Below are positions 1-27,200 of a stretch of 35,143 nucleotides of DNA, piece after piece. The DNA lies in the IMG/VR virus record IMGVR_UViG_3300046757_000883, positions 1 to 35,143 of that record, one strand, 5' to 3'. The translations under genes were made by a program, and so were the position numbers. The notes beneath the pieces were generated by a model. That model had not been told where the DNA came from, did no database searches, and saw only the letters and a program-made list of their open reading frames with translations. The stretch is from a virus. Each line of letters starts with the position of its first letter. Within the stretch, counting starts at the first letter, position 1.

Positions 1-406
1 TACCACTTACAACTACCACACTGCCATTTGGCAAACTTCTTTGTTCCATATCATGATGTAGAGCTTTGAATGCATTCCAATGGGCTGTAATAAACGAATC
101 GCCTTCCACAATACTAATAATTGCAATCCTGCATATTCCATGTTGTACACTCTGTATTACCTTTATAGGAATATTTAATAGTGTATTAAAGGAGTCAGGA
201 TTTCGTACATCACCTGTCCATTGAAAGGCATACTTAGAAACTTCTATAGGAAAAATACACTGTGACTCTGTTCCGGGATCTCCAAATGCAACTCCTACGT
301 CAGTAGTTTTGTGTCTTAAAATAAATTGTTTAAACGGCCGTACTTCTTTTATTTGAGGCACATGATCTAAATTCAGTCTATCACTATTAGAAAATTGAAA
401 CTTCAT
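1..406 (-). CDS. Partial gene, possible third glycosyltransferase-like family member (3' end outside window)
   Basis: An ATG at 406 overlaps the upstream stop (ATGA), and the frame is open through base 1, giving 135 codons. The product starts MKFQFSNSDRLNLDHVPQ and continues with VRPFKQFILRHK, FGDPGTESQ, FPIEVSKYAFQWTGD and CRIAIISIVEGDSF. The in-window part ends in LPNGSVVVVSG. The last part (strand ending in EG, about 25 residues, then P...VVVVSG) resembles the N-terminal ILFEGWAHD...RVIYVTN block of the gene at 5016. A relative of those glycosyltransferase-like proteins is therefore possible, but the diagnostic TEK...PF part would lie beyond the edge. Confidence 0.7.
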   Translation of the reverse strand, partial: MKFQFSNSDRLNLDHVPQIKEVRPFKQFILRHKTTDVGVAFGDPGTESQCIFPIEVSKYAFQWTGDVRNPDSFNTLLNIPIKVIQSVQHGICRIAIISIVEGDSFITAHWNAFKALHHDMEQRSLPNGSVVVVSG

Positions 407-1674: not shown

Positions 1675-2782
1675 TTTGTTTCTCTACAAGTTTACGAAAG
1701 TTGTACTCGGTAATTTCTTTTATACCTTCTAGTACATCTGCATACTCTTGTGGAGGAAGATTGCAAATGCGAGTAATTTCGTCTACAATCATATTTATCC
1801 GTTTTTCGTTGTCTGTCTCTACATCATACGATTCATCTATATACGGATTAAAAGTTTTAAAACCCAATGCCCTAAAGTCTACAAGCATACGGGGCGTACT
1901 AAATGCAATAAATGGTTTCTTACATGCTACAGATTTATATGTCTTTTCTGTAATACTTGTAGGTGCATAATTTCTATCATATGTATTTTGATTAGTATAA
2001 TACGTTTGATCAAAATGTGTCTCAATAGCAATATGAAAATCTGCTGATAATATTGCGTCATATGTTACATTTGACCATTTGTTTAACACACTAGTATTTG
2101 CATCTAATTCATGTGGACACTCTTTAAGCCAACGATATGCTTCTTTACTTGTTGATACAGAACGCTTTTCTAAATCTTCTACTATTTGTTTTGCTTTAAA
2201 AACCTTTGGAGGATTTTGGTATGGCCATATGTTAAAGAAACTGTATTTGAAATGTTCTTGTAGAACACCGCTATCAAGTAGTTTTACATATAGCATTGCT
2301 CGCCAGTCTCTGTAATTACGGCTAAGACTACTAAATTTATGTGTTATTTCTGCTTCATGAGATTCTGGTATAGTAACTTCTTTTAACAAATAATTATCAA
2401 CTACAATATTACAATCTCTACCATATTTTGCAAGGTATGATTGTAAAAATTGTTTGTGATTTTCGTCCATTACAATAACTTGAATGTCATCGAATCCTAA
2501 ACTGTATTCAACTAAAGTATTTTTTAGATCTTCTGCAAAGTCAATACTAAATGTTTCACTATCGTTTTCATGTACTAAGTGAACATCTTTAAAACGCTTT
2601 ATATGATTCCAATTTGGTTCATTTAATGCATTTAACAAAGGCACACCTTCCATCAATGAATCATAAGGATGATGGTAGTATAAAACTTCTTTACTTTCAA
2701 GATCTACTGTACTTAGGTCTTCTACATCGCTGAATGCTAAGTCATGTGACCATTTCTTGCCTGTTTTACTGTGTACGCTCAT
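1667..2782 (-). CDS. Probable glycosyltransferase (same family as the 5016 gene), 371 aa
   Basis: Start placed at the ATG at 2782, with AAAGGA 8 bases before it; a TTG lies one codon upstream but has poorer spacing. It shares the family blocks: DIQVIVMDENH (99-109), KFSSLSRNYRDWRAMLYVKL (149-168) and SITEKTYKSVACKKPFIAFS (276-295), then LGFKTFNPYIDESYD. The middle part is different from its relative, which suggests another acceptor. It lies directly after the GDP-mannose epimerase with a 17-base overlap, so it is a good candidate user of the epimerase product. No signal peptide was seen. The GT10-like reading rests on the TEK...PF block only. Confidence 0.68.
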   Translation of the reverse strand: MSVHSKTGKKWSHDLAFSDVEDLSTVDLESKEVLYYHHPYDSLMEGVPLLNALNEPNWNHIKRFKDVHLVHENDSETFSIDFAEDLKNTLVEYSLGFDDIQVIVMDENHKQFLQSYLAKYGRDCNIVVDNYLLKEVTIPESHEAEITHKFSSLSRNYRDWRAMLYVKLLDSGVLQEHFKYSFFNIWPYQNPPKVFKAKQIVEDLEKRSVSTSKEAYRWLKECPHELDANTSVLNKWSNVTYDAILSADFHIAIETHFDQTYYTNQNTYDRNYAPTSITEKTYKSVACKKPFIAFSTPRMLVDFRALGFKTFNPYIDESYDVETDNEKRINMIVDEITRICNLPPQEYADVLEGIKEITEYNFRKLVEKQNA

Positions 2783-3740
2783 CAACTTTATCCTTTATCC
2801 ATGCATAGGTATGTTTAAGTCCATACTCTAAATCTTCACTAGGGCGCCATCCAAGTAATTCTTCAATAAGATTGTTATGACTAGTTCTACCCATCACGCC
2901 AATTGGACCATCTACATTGTTAATTTCTAAAGTATTCTTACCGGCAATTTGTCCTATAAGTTGTGCTAGGTCATTGATAGAAATCATTCTTTCGCTACCA
3001 AGGTTCACTGGTTGATCAATATTACTTGCCATAATTTTTTGTAAGCCTGTAATACATTCTTCTATATACAAGAAACTTCTAGTTTGATTTCCTGGTCCCC
3101 ATATATCTACAGTACCATCGCTTTCAGCAACTTTACGACACAGTGCCGCTGGTGCTTTCTCTTTGCCATCTTCCCAACTTCCAAGTGGGCCAAAAACATT
3201 GTGTAGTCTTACAACCTTTGCATCAATGTCATAGTTTTTCTTGTGTGTTAGATATAGTCTTTCACTAAACAATTTTTCCCATCCGTATTCTGTATCAGGC
3301 TCTGCTGGATATGCACTAGACTCTTCACAATAAGGATTGTCAGGATCTAACTGATTACGTTCAGGATAAATGCATGCACTACTTGTATAAAGGATTTTCT
3401 TTATGCCCTTTTTAGTTGCTTCGTGTAATACATTTAAATTTATCAATGCACTGTTATGCATAATATCACTATCATGATCGCCAATGCCAATATATCCTGT
3501 TCCGCCCATATCTGCCGCAAGTTGGTACACTTCATCTAAATCAGATTTTACACAACCAGCAACAAAGTCTGGGTTACGTAAATCTACTTGAAAAAATTCT
3601 TGTGCGTTTGTAGGTTCAAAAGCAGGTTGTTTTATATCTGCACCTATTACATAATGCCCTTGTTCAACTAGTGTGTTAACTAGATGATGTCCTATGAAGC
3701 CGCCTGCTCCACATACTAATATTTTCTTTTTAGTTTCCAT
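2766..3740 (-). CDS. gme: GDP-mannose 3,5-epimerase homologue, 324 aa
   Basis: Extended short-chain dehydrogenase with the Rossmann NAD loop GAGGFIG (11-17). It matches plant GDP-mannose 3,5-epimerase nearly along its whole length, from memory: QLAADMGGTGYI, SSACIYPE, YPAEP, YGWEKL, RLHNVFGPLGSW, EKAPAALCRK, WGPGNQTRSFLYIEEC, PVNLGSERMISIND, GRTSHNNLIEE and LGW. The catalytic set is present at a constant offset of 22 from the Arabidopsis enzyme: S121, C123, Y152, K156 and K195 (plant S143, C145, Y174, K178, K217). The plant enzyme turns GDP-D-mannose into GDP-L-galactose and GDP-L-gulose. AAGGAG lies 4 bases before the ATG, which overlaps the upstream stop by 11 bases. Alternatives such as GDP-fucose synthase or UDP-glucose epimerase fit less well because they lack the catalytic Cys/Lys context. 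Confidence 0.88.
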   Translation of the reverse strand: METKKKILVCGAGGFIGHHLVNTLVEQGHYVIGADIKQPAFEPTNAQEFFQVDLRNPDFVAGCVKSDLDEVYQLAADMGGTGYIGIGDHDSDIMHNSALINLNVLHEATKKGIKKILYTSSACIYPERNQLDPDNPYCEESSAYPAEPDTEYGWEKLFSERLYLTHKKNYDIDAKVVRLHNVFGPLGSWEDGKEKAPAALCRKVAESDGTVDIWGPGNQTRSFLYIEECITGLQKIMASNIDQPVNLGSERMISINDLAQLIGQIAGKNTLEINNVDGPIGVMGRTSHNNLIEELLGWRPSEDLEYGLKHTYAWIKDKVDERTQ

Positions 3741-5016
3741 ATTGCTCCTTAAAATGTTCTAGTTCTTGATGCTTCATTGTATCAAAATGATTGCAATTAT
3801 AATCAAGAATAGATTTTACATCTTTTGTTAATTGTATTTTTTGCTCTTGTGACCAATTAGATATTTCATTAATTAGTTTAAAGATAGTTATCATTCTTTT
3901 ACTATCTTCTTGGTTATCATAAGATTCGTCCCAAAAGTCACTAAATGTTTTAAACCCTAAATCTTTAAGATGTCTTAAAGAACCTTTTGCACCTATCATT
4001 ATAAAAGGTTGTTTAAATGCAATAGGCTTAAATGTTTTTTCAGTCAAGTGTATTTCTGGACTGTAAAAATAAGTTTCTTGAATAATATTTATAAGTGAAT
4101 TTTGGTAGTAATGTTCGGTGCTGAATTGTGTTTCTTCCATAGGATAAGAACTAAAATTAGTTGTATCTAATATAAGTGGTAAACTGTGTTTTGCCGCTAC
4201 TGTTTCTTCTTGTGTAATTTTAAGTTCTGGTCTTCTATTTGCTAGGTGTGTTATGTTGCTTTCAAATGATTGCCCACTTTCTGGCTGTGTTGCATCCATG
4301 CTCATATAAAACTTGTCTAACATATTACTACGATGCATTTCCATATAAAATGCAAGTCGTTGATCATTATACCGTCTTTGAAAACATAAGAAGTCTTTTT
4401 CTCTTGGACCGCATACGTATTCTGTTGTAACGTATTTTTTTGTTACTTCTTCTAAATTTGTTCTATCATATCTAAATGTAGGAAAATGTTCTACATTAAG
4501 TTTAGTCTGTACATTTCTTTTATTACAATAGTTGTTGTATATCTCAGATACATTATGACAGTTAGTAACATAAATTACTCTGTCTAACGGTATGTTATAA
4601 TGTGTAAAGAACCTTGACATTTCATCAAATAATTGATCGTGTGCCCATCCTTCAAATAAAATTGTAACTAAAAAATAACCATTGTTTGCAAGTAGATAAT
4701 CTATGTCTTCTTGAGTAAATGCTTGATTGGAAAATGGACCGTCATTAATACTAAACAGTTTCCGCCAGTTCCTATAATGATAGGGTGAAAAATTAAGTTC
4801 GTATAAAAACTTACCTTTGGGTATCTTATGGCAACTTACAATATTTGCATCATCGCCAAACCTTGTATGAAAATGAGGTTCTTGTAATAAGTCTCGTGGC
4901 GGGCGATGTTCGCTATTTAAAGCCCAAGATAGATCTGCTATTGTAGGTATTCTGTTATTAGTTATTGGTCCGTTTGGTCCAATCCATTGATATGCAAAGT
5001 TTAATTTTTTAGACAT
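3730..5016 (-). CDS. Probable glycosyltransferase (GT-B/GT10-like C-terminal motif), 428 aa
   Basis: Three blocks are shared with the gene at 2782: an N-terminal YFLVTILFEGWAHD / VIYVTNCHN region (113-155), DFLCFQRRYNDQRLAFYME (208-226), and a C-terminal LTEKTFKPIAFKQPFIMIGA (324-343) followed by LGFKTFSDFWDESYD. The TEK...A...PF pattern recalls the donor-binding motif of GT10 fucosyltransferases, and I have seen this block in other marine phage proteins. A GT-B-type sugar transferase is therefore likely but unproven. The ATG overlaps the upstream stop by 8 bases. The next gene is the GDP-mannose epimerase, which could supply its donor (GDP-L-galactose or similar). Confidence 0.68.
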   Translation of the reverse strand: MSKKLNFAYQWIGPNGPITNNRIPTIADLSWALNSEHRPPRDLLQEPHFHTRFGDDANIVSCHKIPKGKFLYELNFSPYHYRNWRKLFSINDGPFSNQAFTQEDIDYLLANNGYFLVTILFEGWAHDQLFDEMSRFFTHYNIPLDRVIYVTNCHNVSEIYNNYCNKRNVQTKLNVEHFPTFRYDRTNLEEVTKKYVTTEYVCGPREKDFLCFQRRYNDQRLAFYMEMHRSNMLDKFYMSMDATQPESGQSFESNITHLANRRPELKITQEETVAAKHSLPLILDTTNFSSYPMEETQFSTEHYYQNSLINIIQETYFYSPEIHLTEKTFKPIAFKQPFIMIGAKGSLRHLKDLGFKTFSDFWDESYDNQEDSKRMITIFKLINEISNWSQEQKIQLTKDVKSILDYNCNHFDTMKHQELEHFKEQYGN

Positions 5017-6385
5017 TGCTACAGTCCTTGTAAAAATGTTCTAACTCAGGAAAAGTTTCAACTAAGTTTGTACCTCTACGTTTATCATACTCACTAAACC
5101 AAGAATAGAAGTTACGCATGCCGTGTATAACTTTATCTTGATCATAATTAGTATTTTTCATATAGTCTATTACACGTCTAAATCTTTCAAATTCAAGAGA
5201 ACTAAATTTTGTTCTATCTTTATCATCTGTATTTTCTTCTATAAACTTTAGATGTTTTTCCATGTAAGGTAAAAATTCATCCTTAGGCAAAATATTCATA
5301 TCAAATTGCAAAGGCTCTTTAAGATAAGGTGTGTCAAATCTTACACGTTGCCATTGTGTTTCGTTTGCGTCAGTGTTATACTTTGTACGCCATTCTAATA
5401 TTTTTTCTAACAAAGAACTAAAACTTGTAACTACAAATAAATTAAATGTAACCATAAATGTTACAGGCCAACCTGTTGCTGTAAGATAGTAATCTAAGTT
5501 ACGTTCCCATAGTTCAACATCTAAACCTGTACGTGTATATTCTGCACGTTTACCCCAAGTGTCAATACTTGTGTATAATTTAAAACTATTGATGCAACCT
5601 TTTTCTTTTAGATCTTTTACACGCTCTACTAGCCTGTATACCATTGCAGGCTTAACGCCCATGTTACTATTAAGTTCAATATTAAGGTGTGGCTTAGGAT
5701 TTTGCTCTAGTTCGTCAAACAGCCGCCATGTGCTTTTATGCATTAATGGTTCGCCGCCAGTTACACGCAAAATGTTTAGTGTCTTGCTTACTTCAGGCCA
5801 CCATTTCCACCATGCGTCTACATAAGGGTTAGTATCTTCTTCATATAATTCAAACCAGTCAATATCATTACGGTGTTCTGTACTATTACTATATGGTCCG
5901 TTTTGTTTTATTTCGCTGTAGTATCTACTACTAAATTTAGGATGACAGTAACCGCATTTAAAATTACATTCATTACTAAAGTTAACTTCAATGTATTCAG
6001 GATTTATATCGTAATCCCAAGGATTATTTTTTATTTCTTCAATGCGTTCTGGTGTATAAATGCTGGTTGTCTTTATATGTCTGTCACTAACATAGTCTTT
6101 GCCCATACACTCAATATTCCAACAGTACTGACAGCCTGCTGGCTTTTGGCCGTTAAGCATAGCAAGTCGTTCTTGTTTCTTTTGTGGAGTATTATGTAGT
6201 TGACTAGGATTTTGTTCAAGGCCTTCTAACGGAATCTTGTGGGGAGCAGGATGATAACAACTATGTGTTTCGCCAGTTTGTAAATAGATTGTTACATGAT
6301 GCCATTTAGCCAAACAAAAAGTAGGTGAAGTCTCTTTTTCAACACCCGGCATTATTTCCTTAATCCTAATTAATTCGGTGTTCAT
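5009..6385 (-). CDS. Radical SAM enzyme with N-terminal cysteine cluster, 458 aa
   Basis: The radical SAM core is clear: C140-x3-C144-x2-C147 (NECNFKCGYCHPKFSSRYY) binds the 4Fe-4S cluster that cleaves S-adenosylmethionine, and VTGGEPLMH (208-216) is the SAM-binding GGE motif. Before the core, C24, C43, C85 and C88 (CLAKWHH, SCYHP, GCQYCWNIEC) could hold an auxiliary iron-sulfur cluster of the twitch/SPASM kind, here at the N-terminus. Proteins of this type are common in marine phages with unassigned reactions. The context of glycosyltransferases and an epimerase suggests a sugar or glycan substrate. That is inference; peptide modification is also possible. The ATGA overlap upstream and ATGTCTAA overlap downstream show coupling. 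Confidence 0.87.
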   Translation of the reverse strand: MNTELIRIKEIMPGVEKETSPTFCLAKWHHVTIYLQTGETHSCYHPAPHKIPLEGLEQNPSQLHNTPQKKQERLAMLNGQKPAGCQYCWNIECMGKDYVSDRHIKTTSIYTPERIEEIKNNPWDYDINPEYIEVNFSNECNFKCGYCHPKFSSRYYSEIKQNGPYSNSTEHRNDIDWFELYEEDTNPYVDAWWKWWPEVSKTLNILRVTGGEPLMHKSTWRLFDELEQNPKPHLNIELNSNMGVKPAMVYRLVERVKDLKEKGCINSFKLYTSIDTWGKRAEYTRTGLDVELWERNLDYYLTATGWPVTFMVTFNLFVVTSFSSLLEKILEWRTKYNTDANETQWQRVRFDTPYLKEPLQFDMNILPKDEFLPYMEKHLKFIEENTDDKDRTKFSSLEFERFRRVIDYMKNTNYDQDKVIHGMRNFYSWFSEYDKRRGTNLVETFPELEHFYKDCSNV

Positions 6386-7272: not shown

Positions 7273-7840
7273 CTACAACCTCGCACGAATACTTTTGGAA
7301 CTTCCTATTAGTATATACACTAAAATTGTCAAAATCATACTGACTCTGGCTATCAATAATTATAGGTTCGTCTAACAACAGTTCTACAGTTGTTGTAAAA
7401 TATTCGTACAAGATATTAGGATTATTTTTTTGAGTAATGCTAAACTGTAATCTTTGGTTAATAAGTTCTTTCTTTGTCGATAAATCTTTTTTAGCTGTGT
7501 CCGACAGTGTTATTTTCCATTTATTTGTAGATTTTATATATTGCACAAAAATTTGTGCATTGTTTTGCTGTTCAATTTTATAAACATTGTCGTTTACATC
7601 TGATTCTATTTTTTTGTACTTGTCTACAATAACATATGCTGACGTTTTTATGTCATAGATTACTTTGTGTCTTGTAATACTTTTTTCACCATTGATATAC
7701 GGTCTAATATCATCTATATCTGCTACAAAGGAATTTTCTATATCTTGTTCTACATTTGAGATAGACAAAATATTGCCTGTATTCTTATCAAAATATACTT
7801 TGTATACTATTTCGTATTTGGGCGTTTCTAAAACAATCAT
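7265..7840 (-). CDS. Beta-rich protein of unknown function, 191 aa
   Basis: Not recognised. The protein alternates hydrophobic and charged residues in a strand-like way (YEIVYKVYFDKNTGNILSIS, KVIYDIKTSAYVIVDKYKKI). It is Lys, Asn and Asp rich and has only one cysteine (SCEVVDG at the end). No signal peptide, membrane helix or enzymatic motif was seen. It lies between two glycosyltransferase genes with an ATGA overlap upstream and an ATGGATAA overlap downstream, so it is made with them. It could be an accessory or virion protein that receives the glycan, but this is only suggested by position. Confidence 0.72.
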   Translation of the reverse strand: MIVLETPKYEIVYKVYFDKNTGNILSISNVEQDIENSFVADIDDIRPYINGEKSITRHKVIYDIKTSAYVIVDKYKKIESDVNDNVYKIEQQNNAQIFVQYIKSTNKWKITLSDTAKKDLSTKKELINQRLQFSITQKNNPNILYEYFTTTVELLLDEPIIIDSQSQYDFDNFSVYTNRKFQKYSCEVVDG

Positions 7841-8673
7841 AAATTTACCCTTTTTTCTAGCACTTGCACAATATCATCTGTTAAAAAGTCATCTTCTGTG
7901 TAATGAAATATACCAGATTGTTTATAGTTACCTATGTACAGTTCAGCATCATCAGTAAAATATGTGCCAACTTTAGTTTGCCAACTTTCTCTAAGGTCAT
8001 TCCACCCTTGTATATTTGCTTTCATGTGTGTAAAACTAGGAACTGATACATTTTCATTAGTAACTTTTGATTTGCAATCAAGTATATCTACAGTCATTGC
8101 CGCTGTAAGGTCCATACTTGCAAAATTTTGTATTTGTTTTTCGCCACCTAGTTTGTAAAATTCTTTCCAGTTATTTGTAATAGTATCTAACCAGGTGTAA
8201 AACTCTAGTGCAAAGTCGCTTTTCTTAAAATAATGTAACCCCATATAAGTGTTGGGCAAGTTGTGCTTGGCAAAATTCTTTCTATAGAACGTATCTGTAA
8301 TTTTGTTTCCTCTGTAATCAAATACTGTTGATGTTAGAAACATGTCATACTGTTGTAAATAATCATACCAAGATGTAATATCTTCAAGTACAAGCATATC
8401 TGTATCTAACACTATTGCATCTTCATAGGGTGAAATAAAATACGTTTTCCATCTATTGTGTATTTTCCAATCATACTTGTTTGCTAAGTCTCCCCAAGGT
8501 ATTTTGATTATGAGATCAAACAAGCCTTTATACTTTGCAGGTACTTTGTCATCAGTGAGTATACTAATTTTGCTGTTTGGAGTAGTTGCATGTATACTCA
8601 TAGCAAGAGCACACGCCTGTTTTACATAATCTACTTCTAATGTATTTTGGGCAACAAGAATAAAATTAGGCAC
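7837..8673 (-). CDS. Glycosyltransferase, GT-A fold with DxD, 278 aa (paralogue 2)
   Basis: GTG start supported by a strong GGAGG 9 bases upstream. It is a paralogue of the preceding gene: VDYVKQACALAMS, KISILTDDKVPAKYKGLFD, and DTD at 90-92 in YEDAIVLDTDMLVLED. Later motifs are NTYMGLHYFKKSDFALEFYT and a terminal SGIFHYTEDDFL, whose histidine may help bind the donor as in GT8 enzymes. There is no signal peptide, so it should act in the host cytoplasm. The two copies have diverged through most of the middle, suggesting different donors or acceptors. The stop overlaps the next start as ATGA. Confidence 0.8.
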   Translation of the reverse strand: MPNFILVAQNTLEVDYVKQACALAMSIHATTPNSKISILTDDKVPAKYKGLFDLIIKIPWGDLANKYDWKIHNRWKTYFISPYEDAIVLDTDMLVLEDITSWYDYLQQYDMFLTSTVFDYRGNKITDTFYRKNFAKHNLPNTYMGLHYFKKSDFALEFYTWLDTITNNWKEFYKLGGEKQIQNFASMDLTAAMTVDILDCKSKVTNENVSVPSFTHMKANIQGWNDLRESWQTKVGTYFTDDAELYIGNYKQSGIFHYTEDDFLTDDIVQVLEKRVNL

Positions 8674-9496
8674 TTAAATTATCCTCCAAAGTATACTTGT
8701 TCATTACATGCACACTGTTGCCTTGAATTTGACAAGGGCTAAAATTGTCTAGCGAGTCTTTACATTGTAGCAGAAAGATAAACTTATCTCCGTCTATAGA
8801 ATGTAATATATCTCTGTCTGCTGTAAAGAATAATCTACCGGGCATTTTTTTTGCAAAGTTGCCTTGTTTAAATCCGTTCATTATATGAATTGCAATACTA
8901 AATGCAAAGTCGTTGCGATATGTTGTTGATTGAATATTATATACTTTCCTGTAGTGTGTATAGTATTCTTGTATATGTTTTATTAAATCAAAAAAGCGTT
9001 TGTTTAATTCTGTCTTTCTAAAGAACACGCAAGTTGCCCAATAAAAATCTACACTTGTTTCGCTTATGGTACTAAATTCACCAGTATCTCTATTGCCGGC
9101 GATATCTATAGCGTCTTTGTATAATAAAAAATCGTATGTACTAGTAAAACAATTTTTGAATACATCATCTGCTATAACATAGTCACTGTCTAACATTAGT
9201 GTTTCATCATACGGACTAAGCTCGTATGCTAGGCAACGATTGTCATTTTTAAATTCTAAAACACTGTGAGTTTTTGCTCCATTGTAATATTGCTTTTTAG
9301 TTGACGCTGTTGGTATTTCATTAATGATAATTTTATCAAACCAATCTTTATATCTGTCACCAATACTTTCTTTATCAGTTACAATACTAACTGGCAAGTT
9401 AAGATATTCTTTTGCTCTACCAGCAAGAAATGCCGCTTGTTTTACGTAATCTATTTCAGCATTATTGTGTGCAAAAACAAGAATACCTTTAGTCAT
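8666..9496 (-). CDS. Glycosyltransferase, GT-A fold with DxD, 276 aa (paralogue 1)
   Basis: Start set at the ATG at 9496, not the TTG 15 bases upstream. AGG lies 8 bases before it, and the protein then begins MTKGILVFAHNN, matching the MPNFILVAQNT start of its downstream paralogue. Motifs: IDYVKQAAFLA near residue 15; LPVSIVTDKESIGDRYKDWF near 34; the metal-binding DSD at 103-105 in YDETLMLDSDYVI; and a C-terminal HVMNK. This order fits GT-A glycosyltransferases resembling GT8. The enzyme would transfer a sugar from a nucleotide donor using Mn or Mg; donor and acceptor are unknown. The overlap with the upstream gene is ATGACTAA (8 bases) and with the next is GTGCCTAA. Confidence 0.8.
   Translation of the reverse strand: MTKGILVFAHNNAEIDYVKQAAFLAGRAKEYLNLPVSIVTDKESIGDRYKDWFDKIIINEIPTASTKKQYYNGAKTHSVLEFKNDNRCLAYELSPYDETLMLDSDYVIADDVFKNCFTSTYDFLLYKDAIDIAGNRDTGEFSTISETSVDFYWATCVFFRKTELNKRFFDLIKHIQEYYTHYRKVYNIQSTTYRNDFAFSIAIHIMNGFKQGNFAKKMPGRLFFTADRDILHSIDGDKFIFLLQCKDSLDNFSPCQIQGNSVHVMNKYTLEDNLSA
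8683..8687 (-). promoter_or_regulatory. Shine-Dalgarno GGAGG that fixes a GTG start
   Basis: GGAGG on the minus strand, 9 bases before GTG at 8673. No ATG lies at suitable spacing in that frame, so the rare start codon is probably real. Confidence 0.7.
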
Positions 9497-9836
9497 TAAA
9501 TATGCCTGCAACTGAACGTTGTTTTTTTAATTTGTTATATTCATTGAAGTATTTGTTAGATGCTGTTGCATATGTGTTTACTAGATTTTTTGTAAACACA
9601 GGTAAATCTTCTATTAAAGAAGGAAGTCCATTATCGTCTATTAGAACAATTTGATCTTGCTCTAATGATATTAAACTTTGACAAAAACTAATTAGTTCTT
9701 TACTAGATGTAAATTGGCACCCATTTTCGTAATGAATTAGTCCAGCATCATATTGCTGTTGTAGTATCTTTTTTTGCTGATTAATTGTGTCAAGCAAGTT
9801 ACTTGCTTCAAGTGCTTTTGCTAGTTTTTCGTCCAT
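9489..9836 (-). CDS. Small helical protein of unknown function, 115 aa
   Basis: First gene of the sugar module, about 20 bases downstream of the predicted start site, with GGAG 7 bases before the ATG. Charged, helix-favouring residues dominate: LAKALEASNLLDTINQQKK near the N-terminus and LVNTYATASNKYFNEYNKLK near the C-terminus. A short IVLIDDNGLPSLIEDLP stretch lies between them. A coiled coil is plausible. No signal peptide or catalytic motif was seen, and I do not recognise the family. Its position directly after fibre genes is where T4-like phages may keep a fibre chaperone (as with gp38), but nothing in the sequence proves that. It overlaps the next gene by 8 bases. Confidence 0.75.
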   Translation of the reverse strand: MDEKLAKALEASNLLDTINQQKKILQQQYDAGLIHYENGCQFTSSKELISFCQSLISLEQDQIVLIDDNGLPSLIEDLPVFTKNLVNTYATASNKYFNEYNKLKKQRSVAGIFND

Positions 9837-9851
9837 ACAACATCTCCAAAG

Positions 9852-9869
9852 GTATAATAGTAATTATAC
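9852..9869. promoter_or_regulatory. 18-bp dyad overlapping the -10 element (candidate operator)
   Basis: Perfect inverted repeat: minus strand GTATAAT, TACT, ATTATAC (7-base arms, 4-base centre). One arm contains the whole -10 hexamer and the other covers the expected start site. It could be a repressor site or a weak AT-rich 5' hairpin. It lacks a following U-run, so it is not a terminator. Confidence 0.45.
9863..9868 (-). promoter_or_regulatory. Promoter -10 element TATAAT
   Basis: The minus strand reads TATAAT at 17-bp spacing from the TTGACA. Transcription should begin near 9855-9857, giving a leader of about 20 bases before the ATG at 9836. The site also overlaps one arm of an 18-bp dyad. 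Consensus quality suggests recognition by host vegetative RNA polymerase, unlike the TATAAATA late box at 13669. Confidence 0.8.
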
Positions 9870-9885
9870 ACTCGTATAGGTCAAA

Positions 9886-9891
9886 TGTCAA
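9886..9891 (-). promoter_or_regulatory. Promoter -35 element TTGACA
   Basis: The minus strand reads TTGACA, identical to the sigma70 consensus -35. It is separated by exactly 17 bases from a perfect TATAAT. It lies in the 67-base gap upstream of the eleven-gene sugar module and just after the stop of the last structural gene. Confidence 0.8.
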
Positions 9892-9903
9892 GAAAAAGAT
9901 AAG

Positions 9904-11082
9904 TTATTCTAATGTTGTAATTGTAGTAGCTGTTGGGGAAGGTATTCCTAAAATTGAATCAACACGTTCACTAACTGTACTTGTGATGTCATTAGTAACA
10001 TATTCGTCTACACTACTATACTGACCGCCTGATTCAAAATCATTATCTTGTAATTCTATTCTAAATCTCATTGTGCTAGGCGTTGATGCACTGCCAGCGG
10101 CTGTTTGCCATGCCTCAATCTGATATTTAATATCAGCATATATACCAGAGCCATTTTTAGTAAAAAGTATAACACGTTGAGAAGAACTAGTTAAATTCCA
10201 ATCTGCATAATAGTTTCCTATTGTAGGACTGCCAGTACCTGGTGATGATCCATTTGCTACTGTAGAATTTTTACCAAATGTAATTGTTCCCATAGTGTCT
10301 AATATAGAACGCCAAAAATCGTTTTTAGAATTAGCAACAACACCACCTGCTAAACTAGCATCAAATTTAAGTTCGCCGCCTGCGTTAAAGAAGTATCTTC
10401 TTTGGTCAGCGTTTGTCCAAGTAATTTCAACTTCATGAGTAATTTTAGCTCCAGGGGCTGCTGGATCTTCTCCGCCCCAGTTAGAAGTTCTTGTGCTAGT
10501 AGATTTTGCTGTAGTTGAAAAGTTATCAGGATCGTGTACATTTATATTTGCAACTATTTCGTCAGCAGCTGATTCAAAATCTAAATAGCCGCCTCCAAGG
10601 TCTTCTTCTGCATTTGTACTTGTAGGTGCTACTCTAGCAGTACCTGTACCAGTTCCTGGCCCTGATGCTGTAAATTTTATTCCTGCTTCGTTAGCAGAAG
10701 CACCTATTAATGTAAAATTACTATCGCCAGTGTCAATAATCACATACTCTCTTGATGCAACAAGTGCAAAAATAGCGATTGGTGTTTCGTCACCTATATC
10801 AGCGGCAGCTGCACCAACATCGTCACCTTCAATAATTGATTCAAGACCATCTGCGTTGGTCCATGTTACTGGGTTTGCTTGGTGTTTTCTTGCTTTGAAT
10901 AAGTCAGTGTATAAGTCTGCCATGTCTTGTGCGGCAATAATATCACCTGATGATTTTGTAGAACTTGCTAATGCACGACCGTAACCGTTTTGAGCGCCAT
11001 CTCCGACACCTAAAACATCTTGTATTTTACCTTGGATTGTATTATAATTTGCCGCGGTAACATTTGTTCCAATTACAGCCAT
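9904..11082 (-). CDS. Virion structural/fibre-associated protein, 392 aa (paralogue B, with insert module)
   Basis: It is clearly a duplicate of the upstream gene: VLGVGDGAQNGYGRALASS, DMADLYTDLFKARKHQ, TWTNADG, WTNADQRRYFFNAGGELKFD and YQIEAWQTAAGSASTPSTMR. Residues about 100-152 hold an extra module, REYVIIDTGDSNFTLIGASA then GIKFTASGPGTGTGTARV, that is absent from paralogue A. I recognise this as a small module found in many phage and marine structural proteins. The ATG is preceded by AGAGGA. It is the last gene before a 67-base gap containing a strong promoter, so it probably ends the structural block. No terminator hairpin with a U-tract was seen after it. Confidence 0.78.
   Translation of the reverse strand: MAVIGTNVTAANYNTIQGKIQDVLGVGDGAQNGYGRALASSTKSSGDIIAAQDMADLYTDLFKARKHQANPVTWTNADGLESIIEGDDVGAAAADIGDETPIAIFALVASREYVIIDTGDSNFTLIGASANEAGIKFTASGPGTGTGTARVAPTSTNAEEDLGGGYLDFESAADEIVANINVHDPDNFSTTAKSTSTRTSNWGGEDPAAPGAKITHEVEITWTNADQRRYFFNAGGELKFDASLAGGVVANSKNDFWRSILDTMGTITFGKNSTVANGSSPGTGSPTIGNYYADWNLTSSSQRVILFTKNGSGIYADIKYQIEAWQTAAGSASTPSTMRFRIELQDNDFESGGQYSSVDEYVTNDITSTVSERVDSILGIPSPTATTITTLE
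10627..10785 (-). other. Inserted Y-x-I...G-x-x-x-F-T-x-I-G-A module
   Basis: This encodes about 52 residues (YVIIDTGDSNFTLIGASANE, then FTASGPGTGTGTA) inside paralogue B. Paralogue A continues directly from AAADIG to a short linker at the same point. The boundaries are approximate because both linkers are low-complexity. Confidence 0.6.
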
Positions 11083-12132: not shown

Positions 12133-13632
12133 CTAAAGTTTTAATATGCACTCTACTAATTTTTCTTCTTCGTCTAAGTTGCTTTCAAGTGCTATACCAA
12201 CTAAAGGATTACCGTCGAATTTTATACTTGCACAACCTTCAGCATCTACGTAAACTTTATCACCTTTACGTACTTCGCCTATACATCTTACAGGAACACG
12301 TCCTTCAAGTGCTATTGCTTGACCATCTGCTTCTGCATTCATTAAGTATGCTGGCTTTTCAGATATAACACCTACTGGATAACTATCTAGCAAACATGGT
12401 GCAATTTCATATTCACCTGCTCTGCTTACATACATAACTGTTCCTACAGGATGATCTTTTTCTACTGTGTATTTTTCTGCCAAGTCAGCAAATTGTGCTT
12501 GTGTTGCTGTACCTTGGAATATGTCTGCAACTAATTTTGTATTAGAACCGTCTTGTTCTCTTATTGCAATAGTTCCGCCTACATTTGATGCTGTAGCATA
12601 CGTGTAAGAAGTACCTGAATTACCAATTCTTAATTGGTTTGCACTATCTGCAATACCTTTAAATGCTGTTGCATGTACTTCGTCCCAAACATTTCCACTT
12701 TCACCTAATTTTAAATCAGTTGATGCAACACCTGGCATTATGCCGCCTGCTGTAATTGCAACAGAGTGTGTAAGTGTACCTGTGGAAGGTGCTTTTAATT
12801 CAAAGTCAATTTGATTTGCATTTGCACTTGTATTTTTAATTAATCCAGTTTGGTTGTCCGGACGCATTGTAAAGTAAAAGTTACTATGAGTAACTAATCC
12901 TGAACTAAGGTCTAACTGTGATGAAAAAGTAGGTGTTCCGCCTTGTACAAAATCACCTGCACTTAGGCCTCCTAATTTTTCAGCGTTTGTTGCTGTACCA
13001 TGGAATCTAACTGCTGTACTTGTTACACCCGAAGCTGGCGTGTCTTTTAATGTAACACCTTGTTGTATATCACTAAATCCGCTTATTTCGTTGTCTGCAC
13101 CTGAGCCTAGCGTAAATGCTACTGGTGATATAACAAACTGTACAGAATCATTTACTGTTGCTGTAATAATACTTCTTGAAACACCTGTTGGACTTGTATT
13201 ATCAAGTACAGTACGACTAACCATTGCTGTTTGGCCTTCGCCTGCGTCTTGTGGTCCAATTAGGACAAAATTTGAACCATTGTAAACATAAAGTTGTTCG
13301 TTAGCACTATCCCACCAAAAATCACCTTCTGCTAATCCTGCTGGTTGAGCACCGGAAACTTCTGCACCGCCTACTGTTCGCCAGTTTTGGTTACCGTCTC
13401 TAAACTTCATTCTGTCTGAGCCACTGTCAAACCAAAGTTGACCGCTTAGTGGTTTAGGTGGCTGATTAGCACCTGCAAAGTTTTCTAGCAAGAATAAGAA
13501 GTTTTCGTTATGTATTTCTCCATATCCTGCATAATTTTTACCTACAAATTTAATATCTGTAGTTTCGTCAAGAGTACCATCCTCTACTGTTGTTAAAGGG
13601 CTCTTATTAAATCTATCTATTTGATACGCCAT
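12133..13632 (-). CDS. Tail fibre protein, 499 aa (third paralogue)
   Basis: Residues 1-225 again carry the shared N-terminal domain: DIKFVGKNYAGYGEIHNENF, LLENFAGANQPPKPLSGQLW, FWWDSANEQLYVYNGSNF and FVLIGPQDAGEGQT. The C-terminal 120 residues (from about 379) are a distinct domain: FADLAEKYTVEKDHPVGTVM, YPVGVISEKPAYLMNAEADG and IALEGRVPVRCIGEVRKGDK. I recall this from other marine T4-like phage fibres, where it forms the C-terminus. The ATG is preceded by AGGA at 8 bases and by an exact late-promoter box, so this gene may also be transcribed from its own start. No protease or lyase motif could be firmly assigned. Confidence 0.83.
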   Translation of the reverse strand: MAYQIDRFNKSPLTTVEDGTLDETTDIKFVGKNYAGYGEIHNENFLFLLENFAGANQPPKPLSGQLWFDSGSDRMKFRDGNQNWRTVGGAEVSGAQPAGLAEGDFWWDSANEQLYVYNGSNFVLIGPQDAGEGQTAMVSRTVLDNTSPTGVSRSIITATVNDSVQFVISPVAFTLGSGADNEISGFSDIQQGVTLKDTPASGVTSTAVRFHGTATNAEKLGGLSAGDFVQGGTPTFSSQLDLSSGLVTHSNFYFTMRPDNQTGLIKNTSANANQIDFELKAPSTGTLTHSVAITAGGIMPGVASTDLKLGESGNVWDEVHATAFKGIADSANQLRIGNSGTSYTYATASNVGGTIAIREQDGSNTKLVADIFQGTATQAQFADLAEKYTVEKDHPVGTVMYVSRAGEYEIAPCLLDSYPVGVISEKPAYLMNAEADGQAIALEGRVPVRCIGEVRKGDKVYVDAEGCASIKFDGNPLVGIALESNLDEEEKLVECILKL

Positions 13633-18231: not shown

Positions 18232-18239
18232 TATTTATT
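18232..18239 (-). promoter_or_regulatory. Weak late-promoter-like box (AATAAATA)
   Basis: Read on the minus strand as AATAAATA, one mismatch from the T4 late consensus TATAAATA. It overlaps the stop codon of the giant gene and lies about 20 bases before the next ATG. A transcript starting from it would have a leader of only about a dozen bases, and an AT-rich genome gives such matches by chance. Confidence 0.25.
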
Positions 18240-21200
18240 CGGGTAATTCACTTCTTGCTCCACGTAAGAAACTACCAATGTCGTTTTGAGCATCTTTTAA
18301 TGGAGTGCCCGGGTCTGTCCACAATTTACCTACTTTTCTAATAACAACTAACTTTTGATCTGCTTTCATTGGACTTGTTAGTGTTAATGTATTGCCATTT
18401 ACAGTGAACTCTGCTGGTGTATTTACATCACCTTCAGGTGAATCAATTGCAAGTACGGGATCAAATGTAGCTATAGCAGCCTTATTTAACCTCTTTCCTG
18501 CAGCAAACACTTCAAACTCATTTACACTATTAGGTGTAAAATCAAGTGTAAATTCAGTTTGTCCTTCGGTTACAGCATCAACTGGTGTCCAAGCTATAGT
18601 TTGATCAGTATATGGAATATTTTTCTCTACTCCTGCGCCGTAAACTCTAGATCCTGCACTGTGTATTGATGCAATACCTGTTCCTAATGTGCCTCTACGT
18701 AACTGTCTTAAGTCATTGCCTGTTTTTGCAAAGTACTCAATACGTTCGCCGCCAATCCAAATAATGCCTGGTTTATTAGAACGCTTATCTGGCCTTGGTA
18801 ATCTATCTGCTCCTTCAACAACAACAATTCTAAGATCATTAAATGCTAAATCTTGTGCTAGTTTTACACCATCGTTATTGTCAACACGTTTATAGTGCGT
18901 TCTATTAAGAATATCTTTAAACTGTTGCCATGCAATAGTTGGTGTACTAATTGGTGCTGTAAAGTGTATAATATCTATTGTATCATTTTCAGCAGGTTCG
19001 TTAACAAGCTCAATTATTTTCATGTTACTCTGTAACTTATAATCTACACTTGGTGATAACATGGAACCGTTTTTAAATAACCAAACATATTCAACACCGC
19101 TGGCTGGTTGATTTAACAATACTCTACCACCTGTTAATTGATGGTACGCTGAAAAGTTATCTGATCCAGGCGTTAATGCACTTCTATTAATAACATCATA
19201 ACTTATGCGGTTAATATCTAATATATCATGATTACTAAATGTGTAAACATTTATAATATCGTCTTCTGCTGGTAAATCCGTAAATGTAACTTGGTTACCA
19301 ATAACACGATAATCACCATTTCTAAAGTAAACAGTTAGTATATCACCTTGTGACAAAATATTACTTCCTATTGTAATACTACTTTGACCAATGTTAACAG
19401 CATAACTATCTTGCTGGTTTAATAATTTACCATTAAGATATATTTCAGTATCAGCAGGACTTAGAGTTGACTCTTGTACTTGGAATGTTTCTAAAGTATA
19501 TTCTCTTCGTGTTGCATCTGTAATATGGAATACTTTTGAGTAGCCTGGCTTTTTAATAGCACCATTAACTTCTACAATGCTAAAGAACTCTGCAGGTGTT
19601 TCGTATATTGCACTAGTTGATAAGTTATATGTAACACTTGAGCCGTCAGCAATAATATTGTCTTTTTGTATTTTACTATAATTAATTTGTGTATTATTAG
19701 AGTAAATTTCATAATCTAGTCTTGTGCCTTCTGGAGGCGGTACTGGACTAAACACAAATTCAATAAAGCCTGTATCACTTTTCTTAGCAATCAATTCAGG
19801 TCCGTCTGGCTCTTGTCCATCTTTTCTAAGATAAACTGCATAACTATCACTCCATAAAATATTTGTTACATACGAACTTTGTCCTTCTTCTGTAAACAAT
19901 ACTCCAAGATCAATTATATTTTCTCCGTTTATTCCAACTGTAAGTATTGTTAGTACTTGGTCTGTTGTAGGTGCATTATTAAATGTTACTGTAAGGGCTT
20001 TGTAATCTAATGTGTACTGTGCTTTATCAACTATTGTATTACCTAGTTTAACAATTACAGCATCGTTACCGTGTGGCGCTAATCCTAGTGGATAAGTTGT
20101 AGTTGTGCCATCAGTTAAGTAATTTTGATTATATATTTGTCCCTGACCTTCACCGTTTCTTTCATAAACTGTTATATTAACAGAGTCCATAACTTGACCA
20201 TTAACTAATTCTTCTGGACCGCCTGTTGTTAACGGAGTAACAAATAAATCTCCGTCTAAGATAATGTCGTCTGCGTTAATACCACCAGCATTACCATAAG
20301 TTAGGGCGCCGCCTTCAAGTATTGTATCGTAACTATCACCGTCTGGTTTAAAACTACCATCTGAAGTTGTTTTTCTAATAGTAACAATATCACCATCTGA
20401 AACTTCAATATCATTTTCTGCTAAGTTTATTGTTTGTGTTACACCGTCACCTGTTAGTGTTTGCATCATTGCTAATTTATTAGTAGGATTATTACCATAG
20501 TTAGGATCATCAATTCTAATTGCCTTTGTTTGACTAAAGCGTTTTAAGTAAACATTATACTCAACACCGTCTTCTAAAGGTTTAGCAAGTTCAATAGCAA
20601 CAGTTGTACCATCTGCAAAGAATATTTCATCTTCAAATGTGTTATCGTAACTGTCCCAAGTGTCTGTTCCATATTCGTCAGTCATCCATCCTGATGTACC
20701 TTCAAAGCCAAAGCTCTTAACTTCTACACCACCGTAGTCAACACCAACCATTAGTTGTGATAAATCTTTACCAAGCATTCCTGTTGTAGGATTGTACAAG
20801 TGATTAATTCTATCTTGTGCATTTAATATTGCAGGATCTTTTTCGTATTCAACTACAATAATACTTCCTAATGCAGGAGTGTTACTAAACTGTATTTGAC
20901 CTTTTTGTCTAGCATATGTATATGTTTTATCATCTATGTTAGTAAATGCATATTCACTACGTAACAATAATGTGCCATTAATTGTAACTTTTATTTTATT
21001 ACGTTTTAAATTAATAGGCCATTTTAAATCAAACTTATTGTTTATTGCTGTACCTGTAAATGTTTCTGTTTCAGGCAACGTTGTAATAAAGTATTGTCCA
21101 GACACTCTGTCAAACTTAATACCAACTTGTAGACTTCTAACAACACTGTTACCAATTTGTGCTGATGCTATTGCTGTTGTAGAACCATCTGCTTGTGATC

Positions 21201-24200
21201 CGCTAATAGTTATAGTTGGCGCACTAGTATATCCGCTTCCTGGATTAGTAACTTCAATGTTAACTACTTTGCCTGCACCAATATATGCTCTTGCTGTTGC
21301 GCCAGTGCCGCCACCGCCTGCAATAGTTACTGTTGGTGGATATGTATATTTGCTTCCGCTATTGTAAATATTAATTGCTGTAACTTTATATCCGTAATTT
21401 TCTTTCCATGACTGGTATGGATATTCATCAAAGAACGCATCTGCTCCAAGCAACTCGTTATCTTTAATTTTTACAGATTTAGTTTTTATTCCGTTTTGTG
21501 TATAATCGTAATACGGAGGAACATCAAAATCACTTGTTTGAGTATTAGTATTGTCTACATTTTCATAAGAACTTAGATATTCACGTATGTTTGTCTTATA
21601 AGGTTTAACTTCGTTAATGTAATCATTATAACTACTTAGATTATCATTTTGATAATTTATCTTTTGCTCTAGTTCGCCTACATTATGTTTTGCTTTTACA
21701 AAACTTGTTTTATATACCCAGTCAACATTTTGTTGTTCTGACAATACATATCTAACACTTGCAAGGAATAATTCTTGCCATTTAATTGCTAAGTTATCTA
21801 CAAATATATCGTTCTTTAATGCTGTTAATATTTGTCTACCTTCAGTTACTGGTTCAGTATCAAAGAATCTATTGTCGTAGCCTAGTAAATCATAACCAAC
21901 TGTATTTTCTATTACATTATAAATTTTACTACTAATTTCTATTGTACCGTTTTCTCTACCAATAGTTTCATAATCAATTGTATAGTCTAAAGAATTAGTA
22001 TCTGCAACACGTTTTAATAATAACCAGCCACCGTTACCTATATTATCAATCTTAACAATTTGGCCAATCTTAGCATTTGCTGATGCTAACTGATAACTTT
22101 CATCTACTCTATGATCAATTCTTGTAAATTGTGTATAACCTGTTGCATACCAGTCTACATAATCCCAATATTCTTTTGTATCGTAACTTTGTGATTTTAC
22201 TCTATCCCAAAGACTTGATGATTTATTCCATTCGTAAATAGCCCATTTGTTATTTACTGTACTATCGTTTTCAACTAATACTGTAAGCGGTCTTACTTCA
22301 ATTATTAAATTTTCATCATAACCAGAACCACCGTTAATAATGTTTACTTTGCTAACTTGTCCTAAGTTATTAATTTCTAAATTAAAGTCTAATCCGCTAC
22401 CGTTACCAAACAATTCAAAACTTGGTCCGTGTCTTACAACACTTGTAGTATTGTCGTATGTAGGATCGTTATAACCTCTACCAGTATCAGTAATTCTAAT
22501 ATCAGTTACTACACCACTATGCACTGATGCTTGTAGTGTTGCGGTTTTAATTTTATTAATACCAATAAAGTTTAATTCATCTAATGTATCAATTTTATAA
22601 TCATATGTTCTGTCAGTTACAAACGGTTGGACATCTTCACTGTTAAGAGTTTTAAAACTAAAGTCATCTACAATAATAGTTTCTTGAAGTGCTAAGTTTG
22701 CTCTTTCAACAACTTGCTTAAATGCTTCTTGTCTATTAACAAACCAACTTTGTCTTGGACTATTTAATGTACCATATTTGTCTTTTGCACTTAACTCAGG
22801 ATCTGGAACAATACGTCCTCTTGAATCGTAACCAAGTAAACTGTCAATCCATTTTCTTTCTATGTCTGCTTTAGGTACACTTGTTTCTAGTCCTTCTGTT
22901 AACAGACTATATTCAAAATGTCTATTTTGTTCTTGTGTATCTTGTGTATAGTAACTTACATGTAAAGCAATGTCTTTGTCTTTAATTAAACTTTCACAGT
23001 TGTAAAGAACAAATCTATCATTACTTAATAATGCTACAAAACTATAACCTTGTCCTCTTGGATTAGCAATTAATTTTGCAACTTCAGATGCACTAATTGT
23101 TCTTGCTTCTTGAACAGGAACAGTTACTTTATTTTTAACCCAAAAGTAATATTTGTCGCTAAATGTTTGTGATACAGGATCGTAAACTAATTTTTGGCTG
23201 TATGCATCATTGCCGTATTTAGATAACCCACTTATACCTTTTGCAAAGCCTGCGGCTGTGTCTGCTTGGTTATCCCAATCTGCTGGAACAATATCACTTT
23301 CTACCCATTCATAAATATCAACCGAGTAGTTAGGTATTAACTTGCTCCAGTTGTTTGCCTGGTTAGTAATATCTTCTTGATATACATTAAAGAATTTTGC
23401 TGTAGATAAATCCCACCATAGTTTGCCAACATGTTGTTCTTCCCAATTAGAAGTTTCACTAAAGTAGTCAGGTAATGTTGTAACATTGTAACGTGCAAAA
23501 TCAATGTTTGATTTAAATGTTAATTCTTGTTCTGCCGGTCCTGCAATTTTACCTTGTACAGGATCAATATAATCTAAGTATGTAGATAATTGATTTGTTT
23601 TTACGTTGTACAAAAATGCTGATTTAATTTTTTGTGTGTCAACAACTTCATTTGGTGTTCTTAATAATGTCCACGGTTTTTTATCTTGTGTAACTTGATA
23701 GTCAACAAAACTTCCAGGATTTATATCTTCATCATAATATGAGTTTGGATCTGCTGGAACACCTACATAAATGTGATTGTCATTAATTAAAACTTGTTCG
23801 CCAAATCTACTTGCAACTAGTACATTATCATCGCCGTCATAATCTAATTCTTCTGCAAGTATGTATGCGTCTTTAACTTTTTGGTATAGTCTAACACTAC
23901 CACTGTCTATTCTTTTATCAGGGTATGTTGTAAATGTATCATCAAATGACGTAGTACCGTTATCAAATATTGTTTCAGTAATAATGTCGCCATTGCCGCT
24001 TGTTACAGCAATAATATCTTGTGAAATGCTAACCTTAGTACCAAACTTTTCACTGAGTGTTCCTGTACCTGATAATGTTTGATGTAATTCAAACGCTCCA
24101 TTTACTTTTGCATAGACATATACTTTTCCTGTGTTGTAGCCTTGTACATCACTCTCAGGATCAGCAACTATTAAAGTGTCACCGTCTTCGCTAAGGCTTA

Positions 24201-27200
24201 TACTACTTCCCCAACCAGTGTTTGATATAGGTGCAACAATAGTTTGATCAAAAACATATCTGTCATCTAATATTCTATAAACAAGTACTTTGTTATCAGG
24301 GTCAACACTTGTATCAGTAATTACACTTATTGCAAGTACTTGACCGTTTTCGCTTACACTTATTTCTTTTGTAAAGTCTAATACACCTTCGCCTAAATCA
24401 TTAAACACTGGGTCATTGTAAATGTTTACATCATTTGGTAATGATGGAAGATAATTTACTGTACTATTTAATGTTGTCCATTTAAGTGTGTCAGTGGGTA
24501 AAACACCTTTTAGAAATGTAAGTGCTGAATATAATTGATTGTTATATAAAACTATCTCATCTGTTTTATATGATGCATCAGCTGAGTATGGTCCTCTATA
24601 ATGAGGATTAATATCTAATGCATAATTATATTTTTTACCGTACTTGTCTATACCGTGTTTTAAAACTGTTAGGTTTTCTTTTGAACCTACATAAAATCTG
24701 TATAGTTCGCCGTCTTGTGTTACAGCAACTTGCTTACCAACATTACTGTTTGTAGTACTTCCCGGAATTGTCCATGTTCCTCTGTTGGTCCATGTGTTTC
24801 CTACCCTATTAAAGATACTGTATACACCTTGATTTACAGGTTTGCTTACTTGCGAACCGCTAGTGTCTACTGGTAAATTATAAACAAGACGCCAGTCACT
24901 ATTTGCTGTGCTAGGTATGCTTGCTTCTGCTTCTTTACCTGCTTCTGTTAAGTTTTCTTGGTATACCCAAAATTCTTTATTAATGTGTGCAAATGCATTT
25001 AAATCTCTAAACTGCTGTAAACCGCCATATGATTCTGGGTGTGCAGGAAAGTTAGTTCCCCTTTGCATAACAGCAATTTTACCTGTATTACTTCCTGTAA
25101 CAGATATTTTGTTAATTGGACCCATAATACGTTGGTTTGGTAATTGCGATGGTCCTTCTAATGTTTCTAATAGTAATCTGTTACCTTGAGTAAATGTTCC
25201 TGTAACATCTTTAAGATATACTCTACCTTGGGTTCCAGCACGTCTTATATAATATGCAACACGGCCTCTAGCGCCAGTAATTTCATCTCTAATAAAGTCG
25301 CCATCTGCTCCGTTAATGTTAATAATATTTCCGTTTATATCTGAAAATACTTTACCTTCATAAGCAGGTTCAAAGAAGTCACCAGTGTCAACGTCTGGAT
25401 CTGATAACATATCAACATCAGCACCCTGTGTTTTAGTAAATGTAAAGTCAATATATCCTTCCCACATATCTACAACAGTGTGTAAGTTGTCGTTGATGTA
25501 ACTAGGGTCAATACCTAACAAATCAAAGTCTGGAGAATCTGCTTGATCATTAATATATGCTCTAAACTGATCACCTGCGGTTGTAATTTCTCCAGCTAAG
25601 TTTGACGGAACTCTCATCAACCATCTGTTGTCTACAATATTTTGTACGCCGTCAACGTCAACATTTACGTATGCCGCACCTCTATGAGAAAGAACACTAA
25701 CAAATACTGGTTCGTCTCTATCTGGGAATATAGTGCTTGCAACATCATCTAATCCATTTGCATAAAAGTTTGGTATAGTTCTAGCATATGTTTGAGTATT
25801 TTCATTGTAAACTAATACATCTTGATATACTAGACCGTAAGCTGGTACGCCAAAATCTTTTGTTTCTGTAAATTCATCTGATGTTAAGTAGTTTGTGCCT
25901 GTGTTAATATACCACCAGCCACCTACAGCACCAGTTGTGCCGTTATAGTTTGGTTGTGTATAATCGCCAATTGGTGTTCCGTTACTATTTGTAATAGTTC
26001 CAGTTGGTCCAAAAACTCCATTTGTATCTTTTATGTAAAGTACAAGTTTAAAGTCTCTTTGGAATGCTTTGTAAACTGTTGCTGAGCCGCCAACTGCATT
26101 TATTATGTCGCCATCTACTGGAGGATCAGTAAACGGTTCTACTAATAATACAGCATCAATCTTTTCTACAATAACATGTTCGCCATTTATAAATGTTGAT
26201 GTTGGCTCTGTATATGATGCTGCTGAATTCTGTGCGTTAATACCTTCTGGGAATACTTCTACAGGACTTGCACTACCTATGTTTCTATTAAAGTTTGTAT
26301 AATTGTTCCACTTAAGAACTAGTTTGTCTTGTGGCTTAGAACCTCTATATTGATCAAAAGGTGCAGCAATTAACAAGTGATCTGTTTGTGTGTTTGGTAA
26401 GTATGGACTACCTTGTAAAATTAGTGTTAGTAAACTACTGTCACTTGATCTTTCAAAGTTTGCATAACTGTCAAAAGTACTAAATGCAATACTGTTACTT
26501 TCAGGAGTAATTGTTCTTACAGCCTTCCAATAGTTTTCGCTATACTTAACAATATCGTTTTCATTATACGCTATAGTTTTACTATAATCGCTTTGGTAAT
26601 TAGAAGCAACTTCACTTGCTGTACTTGACCCAATAATTAAATATTTGCCGTCTTCACTTATGTCAATGTCTGCTCCAAAGCGATGTCCGTCTGCCATTGG
26701 ATATGCATCAGTGTCTAAGGTTAACGTGTCTTCAAATAATAAATCTCTTAAATTTGATCCTCTTTGATAAGTGTAAACATTACCATTTAAATTATTTGCA
26801 CTATGATCGCCAAGTGCTAATCTAGTGTTTGCTTTATTAGATGATATAGCAGAGCCAAACTCATATGCAGATGTAATGTCGTAATCGCTAGGATTATTAT
26901 AATGCGACTTATCATTGTATACATTATCTTGTATAGCAACTACCCAGTCATTTTTAGTTGATCCATTAATCCAAACTTTTTGGTCTTCAGCTATTTTTTC
27001 TTCTAATACAATGTTTGCTTCTTTTATAGTGTCAAAATTTACTGATCGTAAAATACTTACGTAACCATTAATATCACTTAGGTCTTCGATGCTATTGTTT
27101 GTACCAGCAAGAACATTTACACTAGTTGGCTTTACAACTTCTACAGTGTAAAAACCATCATTCTGTGTTGATGTATTTTGCAAGCCAATTATATCACCTC

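Follow-up and report, generated by a model that had tools for sequence, protein, structure and literature searches.

Hairpins that hold a promoter at the start of translation have been described in bacteriophage T4, where genes e, soc, 49 and I-TevI carry a late promoter inside such a structure (review PMC3014915). In these genes, the promoter lies in the 5' part of the translation-start hairpin, mRNA arriving from upstream folds, the mRNA that starts at this internal promoter is devoid of the 5' arm, and the hairpin sequences vary between phages. These features appear to recur at the locus described here, which is read from its sequence, whereas the gene e device was tested by experiment. The timing differs as well. 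The internal promoter of gene e is late (TATAAATA) and the silenced read-through transcript early, while the promoter found here is of the sigma70 type, host-like and very probably early, and a late read-through transcript would be the silenced one. A word search of the literature, limited in extent and thus weak evidence of absence, found no early promoter inside such a hairpin. As a promoter, the site resembles the sigma70 and T4-like early promoters, with TTGACA, 17 bases and TATAAT, and by its sequence would require unmodified host polymerase and no phage factor; it differs from them in that its spacer is constrained by pairing with the leader and in that it sits directly behind late virion genes.

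The gene layout also has described counterparts. Pelagimyophages possess a host recognition cluster with glycosyltransferases, and in these phages searches for late promoters failed and software was used to predict early ones (PMC7029224). Fiber genes adjoin GT8-type glycosyltransferases there too, in an uncultured marine T4-like lineage, but neither a conserved promoter nor a hairpin was reported, and the likeness rests on gene layout, with no identity to the present phages implied. The DUF4376 domain has been found in tail-fiber chaperones of Alteromonas phages (PMC7289586, PMC10579305). Like these chaperones of phages V22 and A5, the first protein of the present module is small, is encoded directly after a fiber gene and has a similar predicted fold; unlike them, it does not match the Pfam family in sequence.

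Promoter and Dyad

The window, meaning the whole 35,143-nt stretch of viral DNA analyzed, reads TTGACA TTTGACCTATACGAGTG TATAAT on its minus strand at 9891-9863. The first-pass annotation had seen an exact sigma70 consensus in the largest intergenic gap, and both points were confirmed: the -35 (9886-9891) and -10 (9863-9868) hexamers, 17 bases apart, match at 12/12, which no other site in the window does, and the gap that holds them (67 bases, 9837-9903) is indeed the largest between genes. Shuffling gave 0.16 such matches per window by chance (spacers 15-19), so that the match alone would be about a 1-in-6 event per whole window. Chance becomes much less likely because the promoter lies in this gap, with a leader of 26 bases before the start codon at 9836 and a GGAG ribosome binding site in it (9844-9847; TTTGGAGATGTTGT-ATG). 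The reality of the promoter was settled by its conservation among relatives (see below), and a working promoter is almost certainly located here.

An 18-bp perfect dyad had also been reported, covering both the -10 box and the place where transcription should start (~9856). The span (minus strand, 9869-9852, GTATAAT-TACT-ATTATAC) and the two perfect 7-bp arms stand, but only 14 of the 18 bases are paired, the four central ones being asymmetric and forming the loop. When flanks were shuffled, about 4% of promoters still had arms of at least 7, so the dyad of the window is unremarkable when taken alone.

Conservation of the Promoter

The first gene of the module was found in 17 viral contigs, at 47-100% identity. 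All 16 contigs with upstream DNA (16/16) carry the promoter, matching 11 or 12 of the 12 positions, and have a 17-base spacer, a score of 11/12 being reached in 0.7% of cases in shuffled upstream DNA. The spacer bases differ among these 16 contigs and the upstream gene is replaced in several; hexamers and spacer length thus stay constant while the spacer sequence drifts and the upstream neighbor changes, as expected of a sigma70 promoter. Alignment-based scans yielded more than 500 relatives of the first gene, and the best 80 per scan gave 95 different leaders from 212 IMG/VR loci, 83 of which match at least 10 of 12 positions, nearly all with spacer 17; these 83 include L169, whose 10/12 match is weak and which also has an exact late box. 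TTGAC is present in 79/79 of the aligned leaders scoring at least 10/12 at spacer 17, and the -10 box of relatives reads TATAAT or TATACT. A comparison of this gap in related phages had been proposed as a check on both hexamers and dyad, and the two fared differently: the hexamers are kept in nearly all relatives, while the sequence, arm length and spacing of the dyad vary between them.

Among the cultured-phage records searched, neither DNA nor the sequence of the first protein revealed a relative, and the gp6-like baseplate protein alone has distant kin in cultured phages (29-35% identical). For this uncultured marine T4-like group, absent from those records, a firm class of early promoters can now be named, together with a late box and a control device that lends itself to testing. 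Gene end and promoter are tightly packed in L005-L009 and L012-L013, where the -35 hexamer TTGACA contains the upstream gene's stop codon.

Promoter Class and Expected Timing

Exact TTGACA-16..18-TATAAT occurs 45 times in 16 contigs, which are not independent as two of them overlap almost fully, vs. once for the reversed pattern. In a 152-kb contig, sigma70 promoters stand before gp55, gp47 (SbcD-like) and the genes for GTP cyclohydrolase and a NifU-like protein. Structural genes carry late boxes (ATAAATAC) in place of the sigma70 promoter, with ATAAATA at 18 starts vs. 0.85 expected. As the phage group encodes the late sigma factor gp55 and its structural genes carry ATAAATA, a T4-style division into early and late genes is likely. 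Exact TATAAATA was no commoner than its reversed form over whole contigs, its enrichment being seen at gene starts only. Within the window, the sole exact late box in a gap does precede a fiber gene, as previously noted: TATAAATAC lies at 13676-13668 on the minus strand, 44 bases before the gene at 12133-13632.

The occurrence of the sigma70 class before gp55, gp47 and other non-structural genes gives good support to early transcription by host polymerase. The earlier suggestion that the module is transcribed by unmodified host polymerase, perhaps early, is in line with this and with the kept hexamers and 17-base spacing. It thus appears very probable that the promoter is host-type and early, a timing that we infer. 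The module would then lie physically behind late genes and yet use the early promoter class.

A hybrid promoter, in which TATAATTAC would also be a late box for the gp55-polymerase (TATAAATAC with one change) and the operon both early and late, is highly improbable. The site at 9891-9863 reads TATAATTA, not the T4-type TATAAATA but one base off it, and two lineages do have late boxes where the promoter would stand (see below). However, most relatives have TATACT or TATAATA, hence no near late box, and the late boxes of the group keep ATAAATA or TGTAAATA.

Two further observations concern promoters of this class. An identical promoter, TTGACATAATTAAGTATGTAGTTTATAAT, is found in G010 (147241), G001, G004, G007 and G011, gp55 being identified downstream in G010 alone. 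At G010:C1:99870 (-), G005:C1:35775 (+), G016:C1:8916 (-), G012:C1:41064 (+), G015:C1:77626 (+) and loci L298-L377, consensus promoters have a -10 box that ends 5-6 bases before the ATG of MYDI(I/V)F.. genes, the mRNA of which would therefore be leaderless; among the matches listed from viral contigs, this gap is 6 in 48/80 and 5 in 11/80.

Complementarity Between Spacer and Leader

The 17-base spacer of relatives complements the transcribed leader, and does so through sequences that are unrelated among divergent leaders: the spacer CTCCTATAAGA can pair with the leader TCTTATAGGAG in L097, CCTTAGACTATA with TATAGTCTAAGG in L207, and ATACTCCTAT with ATAGGAGTAT in L224. Over 45 divergent leaders, the mean MFE was -9.4 vs. 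-6.5 with swapped spacers (z about -10), and the effect was also observed with 30, 17 and 12 leaders less than 60, 55 and 50% alike (z -8.8, -6.1 and -4.0; p 0.00025 for the 12). A clustering that chained AT-rich spacers had given only 12 groups and was replaced. Shuffling the spacers in place gave z -12.8, and the 17 bases before the -35 box showed no complementarity effect in the swap test (z +0.7). Individually, 18/45 leaders reached p <= 0.05 vs. 1/62 late-gene starts, and the other sigma70 promoters of these phages display a weaker form of the same feature (7/26 at p <= 0.05). The hairpin is not unique to this operon, since some of those promoters have one, and several of the leaders show no spacer-leader stem. 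Very probably, it has been selected in this phage group.

These data bear on the simplest alternative, a plain strong early promoter in which dyads are AT-rich by-products of TATAAT/TATAC runs without a role of their own. The -10 boxes are indeed half-palindromic, the single dyad of the window is within the chance level of about 4% given above, and the ribosome binding site of the window stays open. Swapping or shuffling the spacer alone, with -10 box and leader kept, nevertheless costs the fold a mean of 3 to 4 kcal/mol, and L097, L100, L207 and L224 have arms of 10 to 13 bp, which makes this explanation unlikely.

The first-pass annotation had suggested that a repressor might switch the module off through the dyad. 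As a DNA operator over -10/+1, bound by a phage or host repressor, the dyad would be well placed, its position fitting a classical operator. Folding of the opposite strand is almost as strong (z -8.9 vs. -10.1), as a DNA dyad predicts, and G-T mismatches were not favored over A-C in a test of RNA vs. DNA; a DNA-level dyad is therefore compatible with these results. The variation among relatives stands against an operator. The eight nearest different leaders share the core GTATA...TATAC, but the dyad gap goes from 8 to 7 bases in L012, the right arm is mutated in L005, L009 and L010, and the inner stem varies in the close family of the window, where no compensatory change was seen. In distant relatives the dyads are unrelated to that of the window, and loci with late promoters retain dyads too. 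A common operator was thus rejected, the dyad of the window not being shared beyond close relatives. The proposed repressor switch is left unsupported, an operator is quite unlikely, and spacer-leader complementarity, as a general feature, is better read as a hairpin.

This hairpin resembles that of gene e in that a 5' arm upstream of the start site complements the leader, and its predicted inner stem, the dyad at 9869-9852, is present in the window, in which no RNA family of Rfam was matched. Elsewhere, another sigma70 promoter, at G005:C1:67954 (-), lies in a long perfect hairpin (-17.9 kcal/mol), and the gene that follows appears homologous to the GTP cyclohydrolase gene of G010.

Ribosome Binding Site and Proposed Insulation

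We propose that a strong early promoter of the host sigma70 type drives an operon encoding a probable fiber chaperone, followed by glycosyltransferases and sugar enzymes, and that this promoter occupies the loop of the hairpin together with its 5' arm. Late mRNA reading through from the upstream fiber genes, the nearest of which is at 9904-11082 (minus strand; another gene takes this place in several sister contigs), would contain both arms and fold over or beside the ribosome binding site of the first gene, where it would be poorly translated. The mRNA initiated at the promoter would start between the arms, without the 5' arm formed by the spacer (9869-9885, minus strand), and would be translated. 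As only this mRNA would escape the fold, the operon would depend on its own promoter and be insulated against the late transcript of the virion genes. Promoter, conservation and complementarity are established in the sequences themselves; read-through and translational silencing we infer from them. The explanation by a promoter in a hairpin, taken as a whole, stands for us at even chances, and insulation as the role of the hairpin is plausible but held with slightly less than even confidence.

Predicted folds lend modest support to occlusion of the ribosome binding site across the group. In the 45 leaders, pairing rises just before this site and extends into it, and the site is open at a mean of 0.72 in the promoter's own mRNA vs. 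0.40 in read-through. Its pairing to the spacer exceeds 80% in 10/45 leaders vs. 5.0 by swapping (p 0.006). The occlusion signal was z -3.1 with the 45 leaders, and z -1.7 and -1.3 with a stricter 34; an earlier test with 39 partly redundant leaders gave no significant effect at the ribosome binding site. The correlation between stem end and position of this site (0.54 vs. 0.44 by swapping) was uninformative. In the window's own fold, the stem forms and GGAG is left unpaired (open 0.59-0.96), so that this particular sequence gives no prediction of insulation. In the sister contigs L088-L091, ACTCC of the spacer pairs with GGAG in predicted folds.

If this proposal is true, the gene e trick of T4 works in both directions, and promoter-holding hairpins could help to find insulated operons in phage genomes. 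The promoter also suggests when the surface-sugar enzymes are made during infection.

Late Boxes in Place of the Promoter

Natural exceptions were found among the relatives. In one clade (L154, L167, L169), the start is preceded at 27-29 bases by an exact TATAAATA; sigma70 matches do not exceed 8/12 in L154 and L167, and L169 has only its weak one. In another clade, L212 and L240 have TGTAAATA at -31. Loci L154, L167 and L169 fold more stably than shuffles (p <0.0025, 0.035 and 0.040), while folding was not significant in L212 and L240 (p 0.10 and 0.17), such late-box loci being few, five with these two included. By the boxes and folds of these loci, the promoter class has changed at least twice and the hairpin persists in at least one such clade. 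Since the hairpin would outlive promoter swaps, the insulating loop rather than the promoter class may be what is conserved. It is a tentative idea, which we consider possible though rather doubtful, that a hairpin-held insulating loop, outliving swaps between early and late promoters, is the conserved unit and insulates an early chaperone/glycosyltransferase operon from late read-through in a widespread marine T4-like group.

Persistence of the hairpin when the promoter class changes would also be expected if it were a 3' end stabilizer or processing site of the upstream fiber mRNA, overlapping the next promoter by chance. Its place just after the fiber stop codon and its independence from sequence agree with this, as does L225, where a strong hairpin (-23.9 kcal/mol) is followed by a T run. 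The T run is usually absent after the hairpin, however, 62 other late-gene starts have no such stems, the stem ends at the ribosome binding site, and some sigma70 promoters elsewhere share the stem, which together render a 3' end function very unlikely. In L225 itself (2440-2500), no promoter is recognizable, and the hairpin, CCCTCCTTATT...AATAAGGAGGG, and its T's stand right before the start codon.

The Gene Module and Its Neighbors

The module had been described as eleven genes devoted to sugars. Eleven complete genes are present, to which must be added one further gene cut by the window end, and the sugar label suits the later genes, encoding glycosyltransferases and sugar enzymes, but not the first, which by its predicted fold looks like a fiber-assembly chaperone. 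All are given here on the minus strand. The first gene (9489-9836) encodes a 115-aa protein with a predicted structure (pLDDT 91) of helices and beta hairpins, in a prefoldin-like order of helix-hairpin-helix-hairpin-helix. Its comparison with prefoldin beta gave Z 8.4, a value that helical proteins can reach by chance. In Foldseek searches of BFVD, the top match was an unnamed protein and the named matches were mostly DUF4376, at E about 0.003 and weaker (TM 0.5-0.6). Pfam gave no family at E 0.001 for the first protein of the window, and the DUF4376 model no match at E <= 1 for 18 members of A2. With this DUF4376-like predicted fold, the first gene probably encodes a tail-fiber chaperone.

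The second gene (8666-9511; 281 aa) is glycosyltransferase-like, with a weak match to Mannosyl_trans3 below the cut-off. The third (7837-8673; 278 aa) has a predicted GT8-type fold, of the kind seen in glycogenin, LgtC and GlyE, its AlphaFold model (pLDDT 90) matching GT-A folds such as glycogenin and LgtC at Foldseek E 8e-8 to 2e-7. Further along, the module comprises a radical SAM protein (5009-6385), a nucleotide-sugar epimerase (2766-3740) and a 2OG-Fe(II) oxygenase (994-1674). A homologue of the second or third gene adjoins the first gene in 163/163 first loci examined, and fiber homologues lie upstream of it in 130/163. Elsewhere in the window, 18235-33261 (minus strand) is occupied by a single open reading frame of 5008 aa, the counterpart of which in G010 has 5005 aa.
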